From Rhea pennata (taxonomy: Eukaryota; Chordata; Aves; Rheiformes; Rheidae), in NCBI RefSeq assembly GCF_028389875.1, contig NC_084672.1, positions 2,765,501 through 2,829,500 of the forward strand: a stretch of 64,000 nt of DNA, written 5' to 3'. The notes under the pieces were generated by a model that was not told where the DNA came from, did no database searches, and saw only the letters and a program-made list of their open reading frames with translations. This document shows positions 9,560 to 44,372 of the stretch, one piece after another. How positions within the stretch are numbered: position 1 is the first letter of the stretch; each line of letters opens with the position of its first letter. The position numbers were made by a program, and so were the translations under genes.

Positions 9560-9672
9560 TGAAGAAAGTCAACTGGAACATGCTATATAGGCAAATACAA
9601 AAGTAACATTTTTTGCACTGAAGAAAGTCAACTGGAAAGTGCTATATAAGCAAATATAAAAGTAACATTTTT
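9560..9672. repeat. 59-bp tandem duplication
   Basis: Two adjacent copies, 9560-9618 and 9619-about 9672, begin TGAAGAAAGTCAACTGGAA and continue through GCTATATA and AGTAACATTTTTT. They differ at a handful of positions. The sequence lies within MAP2K1 intron 1 and no function is apparent. Confidence 0.85.
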
Positions 9673-10689
9673 TTCCCTATCATCTAGAAGAAAGGCCACA
9701 TAATATTTAGATCAGAATCCTTAGATACAATCAACAACCCCTGCCTAAAGATAATTTTTTAAAGAGTTCACCTTCCATTTAATCATCAAAATAGTTAGCT
9801 AGAAATGTCACAGCTGGAGCTGCTAGATACTAAATATTTTCAGAGATATTATGTTGAAGTGGTTAAATGAGAATTGAGCTTATCTGAAAAATCTGACAGC
9901 AACGATTAGCATGGATCACTAAAGTCTGAGACTTACGTATCTCAGCACAGCTCTGTTCACGACAGTGATACACAAGCATCTCAGAGCTCAGCTGATGTAT
10001 CAAAGAAGGAAGATGAGAGACCTGACCATGCTGGACAGGAATCTCCTAGTACACATTTGTTTTTCCAGCCTCAGTTCATAGTGCTAGTCCACCACCTCAA
10101 TCTACAAATTAAGTACGAAACACAGACCTGTTAACCTCTAGCAAGCTTTTTTTAATACTTCATTACCCTACTGTGCTGACAGTCTGACTTGTAAAATTCA
10201 ACCCGCTTTGCTCACCCAGATCAACGTACCCAACATGAAGCTCAATAAGAAGCTTACTTCATGCATAATGTATAACAATTTAGTATTCAGGGTTCCCACC
10301 CCCAGTATACCAATGATTAGCTCAGATCTATCTTCCTAACATTCATTAAGCACAACGTTTTTATTATATGCTCAAAAGCTTCGACAAACATATTATTTGA
10401 ATTACCTAGCATTACAGGTTAGTTCCTGAAAAACTAAGTTTACTAACATTAGTGTTATTTTGGTTTAAAGCAGAAGACTTTTTATACAAGAAGACCTTTT
10501 ACACAACTTAAGTGATAGTCAGTGTAACTTCTCCCCCCCAAACACACATATTTACTAAATGCACGCTCGGAAGGCTAAAATTTGCCATTTCCTAAATAAC
10601 ATAATCTAAAAATCTCCATTTAATGGATACCATTAATTTGGACATCACACTCTTATTTTACATATGTTTTCCTATACCCAATTCCCCAC

Positions 10690-21800: not shown

Positions 21801-24800
21801 TTGTCTTTGATACATTAAAAAATAATTTATTTTTTTAAATAAATATCATTAAATAGACTATTGAACATTTGAAAAGAAACCTGTGTGTCTTTAGTTTACA
21901 AGAGAAGTTTTGGTGTAAATTCTCTGTACAAATGGAGTCATAAAGAAACAGAAAAAACGCTGATCTGAGCGGAAGTATTCATGACACAAAGTTATTTACA
22001 TGTATATTTTTTCTGTACATTCTGAACATCAAAATGTGTGTTAAATGTGCCACCACGGATTTTCCAGTCTTGGTTTGGGTGTATGTGGTTTAAGGGGCAA
22101 ATTCTCAGAAGCCTATCAGATGTTTTACAATGAATGTAAATGCTTTTCCTGACGTTTGATCACTGTTCTTCTCATAACTTGAAGCTGCACACTCAAACTT
22201 GTTTGTGGGAGGATAGATTACTGAAACATCTATACTATATAGACTTTCATGAAACTTTCAAATGACAAACTGAGTATTTTCAGAAACATTAATGGCATGT
22301 TTCCCTCTGCAGTCTACTGACTTAATCAACTTTTAACAGCTGGATGTCTTGTTTTCCCTTCTAGGCAGAAGACCTGAAGACACTTATACGACATATGGAA
22401 CATTGGGCCCATAGATTATTTCCAAAATTGCAATTTGATGATTTTATTGACAGAGTAGAGTCTTTGGGAAACAAAAAGGAAGTTCAGGTACATGCTGCTC
22501 ATGTCCATTTCTCTTCAGGCAATACTGTAAGAGGTGGGCTTATGAGAGTAGTTATGCAACAACTGAAATTATGCTTACTATTTAAGATTATAATTTGATT
22601 TAAATTTCTTTCATTTAAAGAAGCTGTCTAGTATTTGGAAGTATTTATGATCACATTTAGGTGTAATATTTATTTGAAACCATACCTCAAGAAAATCTGC
22701 TCTGACTTACAAAAGACACTTTTACCAAAGCAATTTACTTAAGAGTACAGCTTCCTCTGGCTAGGTGATAGACCAAGTATTAGGAAAACAACCCACAGCT
22801 TTAAAAGCTGTGGAAAAGACAGACATGCAGGGAAAGGGAATGTTATTTCAGAGAAATAAAGGATAAAGAAATCAGTAGTAGAATTAAAAACTATCAACAT
22901 AACGCAAGGGATTTTGTCACAGAAATATTGAAGTATTTCTTTTCATTTTAAGACCTGTCTAAAGCGAATTAGACTTGATCTTCCTATTTTGCATGAAGAC
23001 TTCAAAAATAATGAAGGTATGCTCTTTATGCTGTTTTTTTCAGCGGCTGAATACTTAAAATGTCTCTCTTTCTCCTTCCTCTCCCACTGACTAGAAGTTA
23101 ATGGTCAGGATTCATTCTTCTGTTGTAGAAGAAATTAAGACTGGTCCTCCATTCTAAAACTAGGCTTTTGTGGAAATCTTACAATTACAAAACTGAACTG
23201 ATACTCAAACTAAAATGCTCCATATATATTTATAACTGAGTGGCATATAGAAAGGAAACGGAAGATGGATATAAAAATCAGCATCGTTAGCAATGGTCTT
23301 CCAAAAAAAAAACAAAACTGCAATTCCCAAGTGGATGTATTCTTTGTTTTTGTTTTACCCTTCTATAAGTAGGCAGTCTGCAGAGCTCTTGGATCTTACT
23401 AATGAAGATATTGAAGATCATTACATTGCTTATACTGCCAACTCTTACAATGCAGTCAGGATGTAGTCCTGTCCTTTATAGGAAAAGTACTTGTAATGCT
23501 TGTAGGCACCGCTATGTGTATGTGTCACTCTTGGTGTGTAGCTGCTGCTATTTCTTGCAATTTCAAAATCCAGCCACTTGATAGATAATAAATCAGTGCT
23601 TGGAAAATACATTGCAGTGAAAGAGTTCTCAGTGGTAAAATCTTGCCCTGCCAATGGGGGAAGGCTTTAGGAAGTTAGTGAAATGTGGCTGTCTTTGCTA
23701 TTGGCTGCATTTGCTAGATGTTTAATGCAACCTTAAGCAGTCACAAATAGTGAAATAAATGGTTCCTGCCGACAGGATCTGTAGAGTTATCAGATTTTTC
23801 TGTGCGATGGTTCCATACATTTGTATTTAAATACAGTGCTGATAATGTTCTTGAGCTATGGTAGCTAGTGTACTGCTTCAGCTGGTTAGTTTTCAGTCAA
23901 AGAATTTGAGTAGACATCTAACAGTTTTGAAATAAAGATTAAACCTAGAAATACAAGCTGTAGTACGTTTTTTAAAAAAACCCTTTGTTTTAGCTACCTT
24001 CTTTGTTTACAGGTTTAAAGTGCAGCAATAGCATACTTGGCCTTAGGCAATCTTGGAAACAGTGTTTTGCTTCCCTGTTGGTGGGTGAAATTTGTCTAAT
24101 GGAATTGGACTATCTCCATTTTGCATGTGTTAATTTTGACAACTGAGTAAATATTCCATAATAGTAGCAGACTGAATTCAAAATTGACCATGTCATGTCT
24201 ATGTTTGAACCTGTCTGTTGATTCCCAGAACTAGTCCCTCCACTTTCCAAAGGACACTGTGGTATTAGTATGGGTAGGAAGAAAAGTATCTGGCCTTTCA
24301 GTAAGGATGGTATATCTGAATTTACTGGGTTTTGACCTTCAGGCATAGTTTAGGATTGCTAATTTAACATACAAAGACTTCTGTATATTCAGATGCTACT
24401 TACTGTTCTGTATTTGGGTTCTTTGATAAGCACTTGCTTTATATCACAGTGAATATCTGCTATATGCACCCAGATGGAAAACTGCCAGGTAACTGAAAAC
24501 TAAATCACAGAATGTTGTATTAATACAACTTTAAAATATAGCATATAGTCAGAAGTGCCTTTAAAATGTCATCTTGCCACGTACTTAGCAATATATCTCA
24601 CTGGGTTCAAAGTGTTGATTTCTGCCCTTCTTCACCCCCACCCTTTGCAATTCATTTTCAATCAGATGGTGGAGGGGAAAGCAATGGACTAGATATAGGC
24701 ACTGAAGACATGCATCCCTGCTCTGGGAATCTAAGAGAAGAACTGGATTCTCCCTCTGGTACAACTCTCACGGAGGAGCAACAACAGCGAATCAAAAGGA

Positions 24801-30400: not shown

Positions 30401-33400
30401 ATTCTGAAGACAATTATGCTACCCCGATCATAATAACATGCAGTTAAAAATAACATATGGAAGCACATTAAAAATTATTAACCATTAATATAAAAACATT
30501 AATGACAAGCAGGATGATACTACCAATACAGTTTAGTAATACCTGTATTCTAAAACAATGTTTGGACAAAAAGCCAGTTTTCACCTATAGGTTTGTTTCT
30601 TGTGACTGGGAGGAGCAAGAAGGATTTGAGCAAAATCCACTTCGCAGCACAAAGCAAATGGTGAGCTGAGCTACAAACTCTTCTGTAGAGAAGACCACAT
30701 GTGGTGGAAAGGAAAAGGTGACATTTGAATGTCACACTATTGATGCCCTTCACTCTTTGTAGTCCACAAATGATGCCTCTCAGTGTGATGAGGCTTACAG
30801 CCATGCCATAGTATCCTGACATACAAACAAATTCTAAATGATTTTGCATCCTTTAAAATGCTTATATTCCACTGAATTTCCTTGATTCAAATAAGGACTC
30901 TCAAGAGTACAGCTATGGGAAATAAGGTGCAAACAAGCCTATTACACAGCTTAACCATTACAGAGTGACCAAACAAATTGTATTTGGTATGTCCAAAATT
31001 ATTCGGGTATTGTTTCAGTCCAACCAACAGAAATGCTGGGCGCATTTCTGTTTAGAACATCATCTCCTGCTTACTGAAAGGTTATGATAAAAATGTTAAG
31101 AATTGCTATGCAGTGTCTATTAACATTGATAGGCAGAATTGTAATAGTTTGTAACAATTATACCCAAATAGTTAATTGCTTAAGTTTAATTAAAGCACTT
31201 CAGGTAAGCAGTAAAAGATACCATGTGTCTATCGAGAATCCTTTGGCACTGGCACATTCCCGAAGTTCAGAAAAAAACTCCTGTCGTGGTGGAGGGTGTT
31301 GACGCAACAAAGCTTGATGAGGAAAATTTTCTGAAATCTTTTTTGCTACCCAATGGTTGGCCAGAATCATACATTCTGCTACAATCTCATGTACCTCCAG
31401 TGGCTGCTTGGGGATAAGATCATGAATATTTTTTTTATCATCCAGTTGCACTCTGATTTCTATCCCTTCCAGCTCCAGAGCGCCACAGCTGTCCCGCTTA
31501 GCCCTAACATGTCGCGCTATATCAGTCAGTTTTGATATTGCCCAGACCAGTTCAGTCAACTTCTTTTGTCTAGTTCTTTCATCCAAATCTTTCAGTTCCA
31601 GGATATCACCAACAACACTTGTGTCACCATCTAATAATCCTTGTGCTGTTTCATAGATTAGCTTGTATGCAGACCGAATGATGGTTTTGTTGTAGGAGAC
31701 GCTCAGGATTTCATACGATTCTTTATCTAGTTCCCACATGACACTTACAGCATACCTTAAAGATAAAATCAGAATTCTATGAACAGTTTCAATTGCCTTA
31801 AACTAGCATTTCAAGCCCATTGAACTGTTGCACATTTTTGGATTTCTGTTTCTATTTTTTTCTTCATGAAGCAAACTAGTGCTCAGCAATGCCACTGATT
31901 GATGCACTTGCCTTTCAGTACCACATATTCAATAAATGAGAACAAATTATGTCAGCAGTATTATCAATCTACTTGCTGATGCAAGGTACCCCTAAAATAA
32001 AAGGTTACATCTGTTTTAAAGCATAGTTTCACTGCTATAGTTATATTTTTATTCATTTTTATTTTGTTATCTCAGCCAAATGTGTCCATTTTTAATGTAT
32101 GTGTACCCTGTACATCCTCACATCAACCAGTCAACCAACCCTTTAAATTGCAAAATGGGGTAACAACATGTTTGAAGAATGGGCAACAGTAGCAAATTTG
32201 ATCTTTCACATGGATACTCTTAAGGGGTTAGTAACAATGCAAAAAATACACATAGTTGCTAGAGATACTGGTAATGGTAATTCGATTACTTGTAAAAATC
32301 TCTTTCCTCATGAATGCTACAAAACCTTACCTATCAACTCCACTCAGAAGAGAGCATATGTCAGCACTCAAGATGGAGGGCAGCATGTCATAACGACGGT
32401 CTGCTAAATAATAAGTTGTTGCCCTGAGGAATAAAGCACATATGCAGTTCTTCTAACAAGCACTCATGGGTACATCTCTCTCAAGCAATTTGCAGTATAT
32501 ACATAGCTTCAGCAAAACATGACACATGGCATGACTTTAGAAGGTTATTCTTACGCAACACACACTTGCAGTACTTAAGTCAAATTATTTAAATAACTAT
32601 TTGTATAGAACAGGCTTAATTCTGCATTTCTCTGTATTTTCAGCTTCCATAAGAGCAGAGTTAAGGGTGTACAAAGCATGCTCACCGAAGAAAGAGTTAC
32701 TTAATGGCTATACCAAACATCTCTGCTGGCTATGAAGTTTACATTTCTTTGCATCTACAAAAAGTAAGACATTTAATAAAGTGATTCAGCAGTTTAAATT
32801 CAAATCAATTGAAACAATAAAAAATGACTGAATATCTGACATATTAAAACAAAAAATAGAGCCTGCCCTCTGAAATACCCTTGGAATTAAATTAATGTAA
32901 GATTCCATTTTGAAGGTGTTCTATGTTATGTGGAAAGATTCATCCCCTTTGGAATGCCAATAAGTGATCTGTAAATACTTTAAGTCATAAATGATGAAGA
33001 ATATAAAGCAAATGGTGATTAAGGAAAGAGGAACTTAAATCATGACTTTGTGGGAAGGAGCAATTTCAGAGTAAAAAGTTAAGCAGTACGTCACAAAGTT
33101 TCTTCTACAGCACACCTATTTTACCCAAATACAAGCAGAATACTACTAGGTAAATATTTTTATAAGCTACTTCCATGGTCAGGAATTCTTTGAAAAGAAA
33201 TAATAGAAATAATAGACTTCTCAATGTTTCCGTAGAGCAGCATTACAAAATTCCAAACTCTATACATTTTACAGTTTTTAGAAAACAAGTTACCTTGCTC
33301 TGGCCTCAACATCAGTATAAGAGTTTACTGCCACAAAATGGGTTACATCTGCAATGTGGACACCTAACTCTAGATTCCCGTTAGGCAGAGTTCTAATGGA

Positions 33401-42400: not shown

Positions 42401-43268
42401 TATTTTCTTGCACTAAAGAAACTGTGTTATTTAACAACCCCCCCCAAAGAGAAATATCAGCAATCACATGATGACCTATGATGTACATAACAGCAGTGCA
42501 CTATGTAAAAACAACATGAAATCGAGAGGTCGCAGAAGCTGGCGGACTTTGTATGTCTGAAACGGCCAGGTATTGCACAGACATTAGTTACTGAATTACT
42601 AATTACTGAATCAGAATAACCACTGATGCAGAATTACAAATGTTTCAAAGATAACTGCTTGGCAGCACGGTAAGAATCCTCAACAAATATGTAGAGGATT
42701 TAATTCAGACTACAAACCACCGCCTTGCAAGAATTAACGCATTTTTGAAAGAGATTGCAAAAAGGAAGTGAAAAAAAAAAACATAAACTTGCGCGATCCT
42801 TTAGCCTTTTATCACCGCCCGTAAAATAACTGTTTACAGCAAAACCCTGTAGCATTAGCTGCTGTGGTATTTTCTCCTAGCATCTCCTTTTTCATCCGAA
42901 TTTTACTCTGAAGGTGCATTTTCGCCCGGTCGTGCATCTGGCGCCGTTATACTTCCCGCCGCTTCCCCTCAGGCCGCCCCCGGCGGCGGCGGCGCCATCG
43001 CCTCTCGGTCTGCACGCCGAGCCGCCGCCCAGCCCCGCCGCCGCCTCCCAGCCCCGCCGCCGCCTCCCGCCGCCCCCCGGCCCGGGCCGGCGCCCCAGGT
43101 CCCGCCGCGACGGCCGCTGCCGCCCGCAGCGCCCTCACCGCGCGGGCAGGCGGCGCGGCACAGCGCGCTGCGGCATGGCACGTCGGGGCGCACGTAGTGC
43201 TCCCGCACGACGCGCACCGAGCGGCCCTGCTGGCCCCGCAGCTGCAGCACCTTCTCCGTGCGCTGCAT
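27139..43268 (-). CDS. DIS3L: DIS3L, DIS3-like 3'-5' exoribonuclease of the cytoplasmic exosome (whole coding span, 17 exons)
   Basis: DIS3L is the RNase II-family catalytic subunit of the cytoplasmic RNA exosome and degrades RNA 3' to 5'. Seventeen exons join to 3156 bases (1051 residues plus stop; human 1054), all GT-AG with consistent phases. The order is: N-terminal three-Cys CR3-type motif (C32, C37, C41); degenerate PIN domain (about 55-185); two cold-shock domains (about 240-440); RNB catalytic domain (about 460-830) with the four metal-binding aspartates in [10 protein letters not shown] (D475, D481, D483, D484) and the RNase II Arg in SPIRRY (R797); and a C-terminal S1 domain (about 860-960) with an acidic tail. 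The PIN domain lacks the DIS3 endonuclease active site (PDWKVV where DIS3 has PDTNV), which identifies DIS3L rather than DIS3 or DIS3L2. The ATG at 43268 has G at -3 and lies in a CpG island. Confidence 0.97.
27523..27697 (-). CDS. DIS3L: DIS3L exon 16 (residues 891-949), S1 domain
   Basis: Encodes [20 protein letters not shown], then [15 protein letters not shown] and [10 protein letters not shown] of the S1 domain. The acceptor is CTTTCTTGTAG and the donor GTGAGT. Confidence 0.94.
29312..29457 (-). CDS. DIS3L: DIS3L exon 15 (residues 843-890), linker and S1 start
   Basis: Encodes [20 protein letters not shown] and [18 protein letters not shown], entering the C-terminal S1 RNA-binding domain. 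The donor is GTAAGT. Confidence 0.95.
29941..30119 (-). CDS. DIS3L: DIS3L exon 14 (residues 783-842), RNB end
   Basis: Encodes [20 protein letters not shown] with the RNA-positioning Arg (R797), then [12 protein letters not shown] and [14 protein letters not shown] 106-base intron separates it from exon 13. The final Arg842 replaces a Gln in human. Confidence 0.96.
30226..30380 (-). CDS. DIS3L: DIS3L exon 13 (residues 731-782), RNB
   Basis: Encodes [20 protein letters not shown] and [19 protein letters not shown] of the RNB domain. The acceptor is T-rich, ending TTTTTGACAG, and the donor is GTATCC. Confidence 0.95.
31222..31755 (-). CDS. DIS3L: DIS3L exon 12 (residues 553-730), RNB
   Basis: The longest exon (534 bases), starting [16 protein letters not shown]. 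It includes [36 protein letters not shown] and [16 protein letters not shown] of the RNB fold. It ends TCGATAGACACATG before GTATCT. The codon across the junction becomes Trp731 where human DIS3L has Arg. Confidence 0.97.
32331..32423 (-). CDS. DIS3L: DIS3L exon 11 (residues 522-552), RNB
   Basis: A short exon encoding [20 protein letters not shown] and CSLLSGVD of the RNB domain. The acceptor is TATTCCTCAG and the donor a consensus GTAAGG. Confidence 0.95.
33294..33541 (-). CDS. DIS3L: DIS3L exon 10 (residues 440-521), RNB catalytic centre
   Basis: Contains [18 protein letters not shown] with all four catalytic-centre aspartates (475, 481, 483, 484) of RNase II-family exonucleases, followed by [15 protein letters not shown]. 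The enzyme should therefore be exonucleolytically active. The donor is GTAACT. Confidence 0.97.
34205..34366 (-). CDS. DIS3L: DIS3L exon 9 (residues 386-439)
   Basis: Fifty-four whole codons of the second cold-shock domain: [20 protein letters not shown] and [20 protein letters not shown]. The acceptor is TTGCTGCAG and the donor GTCAGT. Confidence 0.96.
35175..35344 (-). CDS. DIS3L: DIS3L exon 8 (residues 329-385)
   Basis: Encodes [19 protein letters not shown] and [20 protein letters not shown], spanning the junction of the two cold-shock domains. The acceptor is TTATTAAAAG and the donor GTAGTT. Confidence 0.95.
35519..35543. repeat. Inverted repeat, 10-bp perfect stem and 5-base loop
   Basis: TGCATTAGAC (35519-35528) and GTCTAATGCA (35534-35543) flank TAGGG. 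It lies in DIS3L intron 7 (between exons 7 and 8). Confidence 0.95.
35918..36097 (-). CDS. DIS3L: DIS3L exon 7 (residues 269-328)
   Basis: Encodes [20 protein letters not shown] and [13 protein letters not shown], the first cold-shock domain. The donor GTAAAG splits the Gly codon of PTGKV. Confidence 0.95.
36423..36454. repeat. T24-A8 homopolymer block
   Basis: Twenty-four T followed directly by eight A in DIS3L intron 6. It is self-complementary over eight bases. Confidence 0.9.
37088..37166 (-). CDS. DIS3L: DIS3L exon 6 (residues 243-268)
   Basis: A short exon encoding [20 protein letters not shown] of the first cold-shock (OB) domain. The acceptor is a T-rich tract ending TTTTTTTTAG and the donor GTGAAA. 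It is too small to show up as an open frame by itself. Confidence 0.93.
37710..37886 (-). CDS. DIS3L: DIS3L exon 5 (residues 184-242)
   Basis: Fifty-nine whole codons: [19 protein letters not shown], a charged Arg/Glu/Ser linker, and [20 protein letters not shown] leading into the first cold-shock domain. Confidence 0.95.
38876..39011 (-). CDS. DIS3L: DIS3L exon 4 (residues 138-183), PIN domain end
   Basis: Encodes [20 protein letters not shown] and [13 protein letters not shown], the C-terminal strands of the PIN fold. The acceptor is TTTTCTAG and the donor GTAACG. Confidence 0.95.
39659..39787 (-). CDS. DIS3L: DIS3L exon 3 (residues 95-137), PIN domain
   Basis: Encodes [20 protein letters not shown] and [20 protein letters not shown]. 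The acceptor is ATATTCCAG. The donor GTTTGT is weak but used with the correct phase (two bases of the Arg codon). Confidence 0.95.
40606..40759 (-). CDS. DIS3L: DIS3L exon 2 (residues 44-94), PIN domain start
   Basis: Encodes [20 protein letters not shown] and the helix [13 protein letters not shown] of the PIN fold. The first Asp of the PIN centre remains but the following TN of active PIN domains is WK. The acceptor is TATTTTTAG and the donor GTACTT. Confidence 0.96.
43139..43268 (-). CDS. DIS3L: DIS3L exon 1 (residues 1-43)
   Basis: Encodes [12 protein letters not shown] and [13 protein letters not shown], then Cys37 and Cys41 of the CR3-type motif that in DIS3 contacts the exosome core. 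It is GC-rich and inside the promoter island. The donor is GTGAGG at 43138. One base of codon 44 is on this exon. Confidence 0.92.
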
Positions 43269-43400
43269 GGCCGCGGAGGCCGCTAGGCCCGGCCCGGCGC
43301 GCCGCGGCCGCTGCGCATGGCGCTGGGGGTGGTGCGACCGCGCGAGGCAGGGCCTCCTTCGAGGGGCGGGGAGCGAGAGCGAGCGGGGCGGCGCGGAGGG

Positions 43401-43756
43401 GGAGGCGGGAACGAGCGCGAGCGGCGCCGAAGGGGGAGGCGGGAGCGGCGCGAGCGGCTCTGAGGGGGAGGCGGGAGCGAGCGCGAGCGGCGCTGAAGGG
43501 AGAGGCGGGAGCGAGCGCGAGCGGCGCTGAAGGGAGAGGCGGGAACGAGCGCGAGCGGCTCTGAGGGGGAGGCGGGAACGAGCGCGAGCGGCGCCGAAGG
43601 AAGAGGCGGGAGCGGCACGAGCGGCTCTGAGGGGGGGGCGGGAGCGAGCGCGAGCGGCGCTGAAGGGAGAGGCGGGAACGAGCGCGAGCGGCGCTGAAGG
43701 GAGAGGCGGGAGCGGCGCGAGCGGCTCTGAGGGGGAGGTGGGAACGAGCTGAGGGG
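43401..43756. repeat. Minisatellite, 32-34-bp units with five-unit higher-order structure
   Basis: Ten units of 34, 32, 34, 34, 33 and 34, 32, 34, 34, 32 bases fill 43401-43733, followed by a degenerate eleventh. Each begins with GAGGCGGGA or a close variant and ends CTGAAGGG, CCGAAGGG or CTCTGAGGG. The length pattern and unit variants repeat after five units, so the array is two copies of an about 167-bp block. A degenerate G-rich lead-in is at about 43360-43400. Confidence 0.95.
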
Positions 43757-44372
43757 AGCGGGGCTGCAGCTGAGGACGGCTCTGAGGGGCTGGAGCGAGT
43801 TGGGGAAGCGGGGCCGGGGCCTGAGGGGATGCGGGAGCCTCGAGGTGGAGCTGGGAGCAGCGCTGAGGTGCAGCCCGGCGGGGACCGAGCTTCCTTAGAG
43901 CCCCAGGTTGTGCGACCGGGCGAGCAGAGGGGGTTAGGTTTCTTCTCAGTGAGGTAAAACTGAGAGGGTTTGGGTCTGTGTAGGAAAGGCCGAAAAAAAA
44001 AAAGCTGGGATATCTCTTTGAAGGTGAATGGGAAGAATCTGCCCTCTGTTAGGGTGGAGTGTGTGGCCTCAGGGTGGTGGAAATGAAGATACATGGTGAA
44101 TTTTCCTGTTCCTCTGTCCAGGAAAAATAAGAAGAAGCTATATTGCTGTACCTAAACTGTAGTCCAGCATAAATGTGTTTGTGAACCATCATGGTCTTCC
44201 ATAGCCTCTTCCACATGCAGCCCCGGGACCGCTTCTCGGATTGTATGGTTTTGTGTGGTCACCTCCCAGCACCCGGGGTGCTGAGATGGGGAACATGGCT
44301 AGGGTGAGTGAGGAGTGCACAAAAGCCCCGAGTCAAGTAATACTGCTATAGAGACCAATACTGTTTTTTTAT

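Follow-up and report, generated by a model that had tools for sequence, protein, structure and literature searches.

Human hypervariable loci are known from maps of their variant units, and promoter VNTRs that are linked to expression include 5-HTTLPR and the MAOA uVNTR. Further expression-linked VNTRs are those of the AS3MT 5′ UTR and the CSTB 12-mer, as given in a survey of human repeats (PMC8024321). For chicken and other birds, promoter short tandem repeats have been described, the trinucleotide ones often overlapping CpG islands (PMC4203960; PMC4725869); the word “minisatellite” is absent from the main text of the first of these reports.

Here, we describe a GC-rich tandem array in a 64,000-nt stretch of the Rhea pennata genome (contig NC_084672.1, positions 2,765,501 to 2,829,500), referred to below as the window. 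The array is probably an ordinary CpG-island minisatellite located on the divergent side of the DIS3L promoter, with a five-unit duplication produced by exchange or slippage. A literature search for DIS3L with minisatellite or promoter tandem repeat returned no paper on this array among the matches listed.

RESULTS

A minisatellite upstream of DIS3L

The original prediction assigned the gene next to the array to DIS3L, and protein comparisons bear this out; the gene lies on the minus strand. Three of the five translated stretches scanned matched the Pfam RNB domain. In the PDB, the stretch at 31203–31802 matched DIS3-like exonuclease 1 (5.7e-95, with DIS3L2 at 4.8e-20), and exon 1 (43137–43268) matched the N terminus of the same protein (2.7e-10). 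The coding part of exon 1 occupies 43139–43268 of the minus strand, from the ATG at 43266–43268 to a putative splice donor (GTGAGG); the distance of 133 bases predicted between this ATG and the array is correct. Exon 1 and the array share a CpG island at 42830–44014. The same island holds a 19-bp repeat of 2.5 copies just past exon 1 (43021–43068, TRF). Elsewhere in the window, SCARNA14 lies on the plus strand at 23685–23821 (full-length Rfam match, 128.4 bits) and is the sole Rfam match at the gathering threshold within the window.

The array consists of ~10.7 plus-strand units of 33 to 34 bp at about 43391–43749 and has 77% GC, a CpG observed/expected ratio of 1.40, and a GC skew of +0.45. 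It was correctly located by the original prediction (43401–43733) but is slightly longer. Its units are arranged head to tail and are longer than ten bases, as befits a minisatellite. GGCGGG anchors are found at 43404, 43438, 43470, 43504, 43538, 43571, 43605, 43637, 43671, and 43705, with an eleventh, GGTGGG, at 43737; the ten measured anchor spacings are identical to the predicted length series 34-32-34-34-33 / 34-32-34-34-32. A profile of the ten units recovered the truncated unit at 43725–43749 (E 0.0043), while weaker look-alike units farther out were in no excess over shuffled sequence (their scores were reached by 99 and 50 of 500 shuffles). The units are ~86 to 89% identical to one another.

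Evidence for a duplicated five-unit block

Tandem-repeat analysis, which had been proposed as a check, ranked a period of 167 first (TRF score 663; 551 at period 100 and 547 at period 66). The next best tandem array of the window scored 200 and lies elsewhere; second in the TRF ranking of the window is an AT-rich 59-bp unit present in 1.9 copies at 9560–9673.

We numbered the units 0 to 10, with ten units in the alignment and the truncated eleventh added for the comparison of lags; the original prediction counted from 1 to 10. Three unit starts recur in the 0–10 numbering: CGCCGAAGG in units 1 and 6, CTCTGAGG in units 2, 5, 7, and 10, and CGCTGAAGG in units 3, 4, 8, and 9. In the 1–10 numbering, units 1 and 6 do have CCGAAGG in common, and units 2 and 7 do have the short GCGGC(G/A)CGAG form, as proposed. 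However, unit 10 of that numbering (anchor 43705) is also short, although it was not listed, and the five-unit periodicity is therefore imperfect at the pair 5/10.

Comparison of the array with itself at a lag of 167 delimits a first five-unit block at 43396–43562 (167 bp) and a second at 43563–43728 (166 bp), both on the plus strand. The best ungapped self-match of the array was obtained at this lag, with 43396–43544 and 43563–43711 differing at 5 of 149 positions, each time by a G/A difference. This match was equaled or bettered by none of 400 free permutations of the units and by 5 of 400 when the end units were kept fixed. Mean identity of the 11 units was 0.922 at lag 5 compared to 0.860 overall, with permutation P values of 0.0005 for units 0–10, 0.007 for units 0–9, and 0.019 for units 1–9 (0.0006, 0.009, and 0.025 when the best of lags 1 to 5 was allowed). 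Together, the permutation and lag-5 results mean that unit order alone supports the five-unit duplication well, though not overwhelmingly. The block copies are more alike than units are generally, which makes the array a higher-order repeat, though one of two blocks only. The predicted block duplication thus stands on the TRF period of 167, the block match, the lag-5 identity, and a hybrid unit at the junction.

This junction unit (unit 5 in the 0–10 numbering, 43559–43591, plus strand) starts like unit 10 (CTCTGAG), while its remainder is identical to unit 0; the outer flanks at both ends of the array differ from it. As read from the sequence, such a hybrid between the last and the first unit is the apparent mark of unequal exchange. 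The candidate exchange site is a 21-bp segment, GAGGGGGAGG(C/T)GGGAACGAGC, whose left copy lies on the plus strand at 43396–43416 and which occurs again at 43563–43583 and 43729–43749, that is, at the array ends and at the junction, with one C/T difference. We suggest that a shorter array, of about five to six units, paired out of register via the 21-bp stretch common to its first and last units. The block would then have been duplicated by unequal exchange or, between the same two endpoints, by slippage during replication, with a few conversion-like changes to follow. Two of the five block differences (43435 and 43511) convert one unit to a variant present in other units, and units 4 and 9 (0–10 numbering) differ by a whole variant form, which suggests that small conversions probably also acted. 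At the zebra finch mutation rate of 2.0e-9 per year (PMC12047795), which may not be the rate of this species, the 5 differences in 149 positions give the duplication a naive age of ~8 million years (Poisson range, 3 to 20), a rough guide only since conversion makes such an age unreliable. A coding repeat was considered and ruled out: 167 is not a multiple of 3, and there is no upstream in-frame start.

Candidate regulatory sites and quadruplex motifs

The ten regularly spaced GC boxes of the original prediction did not hold up. Only one of the ten cores contains the strict GGGCGG, the other nine being AGGCGGG, and the single GGGCGG in 43387–43758 falls below the shuffled mean of 3.63. The Sp1 consensus is KRGGCGKRRY, and it had no match in the same interval. 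The array is thus not a GC-box (Sp1) cluster of repeated GGGCGG cores. Two other words are in excess: GGCGGGA occurs 10 times (0.98 in 300 shuffles), at 136 to 437 bases from the ATG, and the E2F-like GGCGGGAA occurs 4 times (0.20 in 300 shuffles). Neither these two words nor GGGCGG occur on the other strand of the array. The excess is explained by the fact that every tandem copy repeats its words and is no sign of binding. The site preferred by E2F2-DP1 is reported as TTGGCGGGAA (PMC4686757), whereas the array lacks the TT flank of this site and has GA, once GG, in its place; TTTSSCGC does not occur in the array. The predicted even pitch of ~33 bp proved correct as regular spacing but not as helical phasing, since each unit makes ~3.17 turns at 10.5 bp per turn; an arrangement of sites on one helical face was ruled out on the same count.

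The predicted plus-strand G-quadruplex potential survived only in part. No motif of four G3+ runs with loops of 1 to 7 nt (G3+N1-7) is present within 43391–43749, and the sole plus-strand motif of this type in 43269–44000 lies outside the array, at 43802–43828. A looser G3+N1-12 motif (43731–43763) overlaps the right end of the array, other G3+ motifs in the array need loops of up to 25 nt, and two-quartet motifs are present in the units. Since G4Hunter scores reach 1.84, with 29 windows at or above 1.5, the array may have some quadruplex propensity.

These results bear on the reading in which the array is a functional promoter VNTR whose copy number varies between individuals and tunes DIS3L through the number of Sp/KLF- or E2F-like sites. 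The ten GGCGGGA cores speak for it, as does the observation that human VNTRs within 100 bp of a start site are twice as likely to be expression-linked; however, most human VNTRs tested in the same survey had no expression link (163 eVNTRs among 10,264 genotyped) (PMC8024321). The units are also only ~86 to 89% alike, and less pure repeats are reported to mutate less often (PMC3899988), and the naive block age, unreliable as it is, would mean a slow array. We therefore regard a functional VNTR as unlikely. In an ordinary promoter minisatellite, a regulatory role of the array on DIS3L is possible, but any effect would be modest and would act via several weak putative GGCGGGA(A) sites (E2F-like or degenerate Sp/KLF-like) or, alternatively, via changed spacing; exact copy number would not be needed.

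Similar arrays in the same genome

We compared 333 bases of the array to the whole genome (1.27 Gb, 180 contigs; all counts are lower bounds). At least eight matches were found: the array itself at 100% identity and seven others, at 68 to 74%, on five other contigs. The match at 1.40 Mb of contig C8 precedes, by ~240 bases, the likely ATG of what we take to be an ANKRD13C-like gene; for this gene, Pfam gave no match and the PDB a single weak and seemingly unrelated one, to fem-1 homolog C (E 0.35). The C8 array (locus L007, 1501–1760, ATG at 1999) contains similar words and, as at DIS3L, is C-rich on the strand of the gene. The match at 15.83 Mb of contig C1 begins where a pendrin-like gene (E 3.9e-4) has its likely exon 1 donor; the array (locus L005, 1499–1871) lies just after this donor, in a stretch that is also open as Arg/Glu-rich coding sequence. 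On the small contig C56 (33 kb), three matches fall inside one array of 28 copies of a 37-bp GC-rich unit (locus L003, 1487–2476), which has the 17-mer GGCGGGAGCGGCGCGAG in common with the DIS3L array. The small contig C87 yielded one match, to an array (locus L006, 1533–1740) with five ATTGG words beside GC-rich sequence. These words are inverted CCAAT boxes, which gives the C87 array the look of a promoter module amplified in tandem. The C4 match (L008) was rejected as a tandem array, with no TRF score of 100 or more.

The C8, C1, C56, and C87 arrays resemble the DIS3L array in GC-rich words such as GGCGGGAGCGGCG, and those on C8 and C1 also in their position at the 5′ end of a gene, but the best TRF periods differ (79, 24, 37, and 46 bp, respectively). 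Simple shuffles reached the observed score in 0 of 300 cases for these four loci and in 1 of 300 for C4. Ordinary islands served as a second control: 36 pieces taken from 14 of them (11 hand-picked from 58 in a 200-kb block and 3 from the window) scored at most 42 compared to 76–208 for the five loci. The longest shared words (13 to 17 nt) exceeded the longest of 100 shuffles for C87 only. When the unit profile was run over 28 loci, with the window’s own copy left out, nothing outside the DIS3L array fell below E 0.19, and a comparison of the unit pattern with viral contigs gave no match. Retandemized shuffled units (six units, four genome-best loci) reached the observed score in 0, 0, 1, 2, 9, and 84 of 1000 trials, which does not establish common descent because the loci are the best places of the whole genome. 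Convergence by composition would be enough to account for the similarity.

The G-rich strand points away from the gene start at all three places with a recognizable gene (upstream of DIS3L, upstream of the ANKRD13C-like gene, and in intron 1 of the pendrin-like gene), of six places in all, with the caveats that skew is near zero on the gene’s side at C8 and that G-rich sequence also precedes the ATG at C1. It is conceivable, though doubtful, that GC-rich arrays with the G-rich strand outward recur as a class at the 5′ ends of genes, built by outward transcription and PRDM9-independent recombination in CpG islands. The displaced G-rich strand, R-loops, and recombination would then build and reshuffle the arrays, and promoter repeats would arise as by-products of recombination in birds and mark its sites.

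An assembly artefact, that is, a block doubled from two haplotypes or misplaced reads, appears improbable. All evidence comes from a single assembly, and GC-rich repeats assemble poorly. However, the block copies differ at 5 of 149 positions and by a change of unit form (unit 4 versus unit 9), which exceeds usual heterozygosity; the hybrid junction fits a real exchange; and the search of the whole assembly found one identical place, the window itself (a lower bound).

GC skew and the position of the array in the promoter

GC skew is −0.22 at 42950–43268, +0.22 at 43269–43390, +0.45 in the array, and +0.37 and +0.53 beyond it. As skew is positive on both sides of the array, the array does not itself make the change of sign. 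In 50-bp steps, this change falls between 43251–43300 (−0.05) and 43301–43350 (+0.22), and the one exception to the two-sided pattern is 43151–43200 inside exon 1 (+0.13). In the other three islands of the window, the inversion is less clear (judged by eye in 100-bp steps). Skew inverted on two sides has been reported for bidirectional promoters (PMC3882496), and a promoter of this type would have its center at 43270–43340, with start sites predicted accordingly from the sign change. The change of sign near 43300 suggests that the array is probably on the divergent (upstream) side of the DIS3L promoter, inside any divergent transcript. That the array is instead transcribed with the DIS3L 5′ UTR and exerts its effect through RNA is very improbable. 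In favor of this reading, RNA from the minus strand would be rich in C, and the reading frame of DIS3L meets no stop up to 44048. Against it, open frames are expected at such GC, the open stretch has no ATG, GTG, or TTG in frame ahead of the DIS3L start codon, and the skew would place initiation between the ATG and the array.

DISCUSSION

The array looks like an ordinary promoter minisatellite, another example of a known sort. Among 62 CpG-island-like segments (4 in the window and 58 in a single 200-kb block from elsewhere on its contig, adjoining or overlapping segments being counted apart), it alone has a TRF score of 500 or more; the 200-kb block contains 987 N and does not represent a random sample of the genome. 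Two further repeats in island segments of that block scored lower, an array at 403 and a GAG triplet run at 122. The zebra finch genome has 46,205 CpG islands (PMC12047795). Since bird genomes carry islands by the tens of thousands, arrays of this type should be numerous.

GC-rich arrays would form at gene 5′ ends because the islands there are open, transcribed outward, and, in birds, favored for meiotic recombination. To our knowledge, birds lack PRDM9. Zebra finch data place 23.7% of crossovers within 100 bp of a CpG island, compared to 17.5% expected, and start sites are reported to add no further enrichment (PMC12047795).

Should its copy number vary, the array would lend itself directly to testing whether an RNA-decay gene is tuned by a GC-rich minisatellite in its promoter. 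If copy number is constant, the array offers a small but clear case of unequal exchange within a CpG island, one whose exchange site can be narrowed to 21 bp and which comes from a lineage whose recombination probably favors CpG islands.

Compared to the repeats described in chicken and other birds, the DIS3L array likewise lies in an avian promoter, but those are short tandem repeats (PMC4203960; PMC4725869). With expression-linked promoter and 5′ VNTRs, it shares tandem units at a promoter or 5′ end; the genes and units differ, and the DIS3L array is known here from its sequence alone. Unlike human hypervariable loci, it is short, moderately impure, and known from one assembly, but it resembles them in having units longer than 10 bases, variant unit types, and a block duplication.
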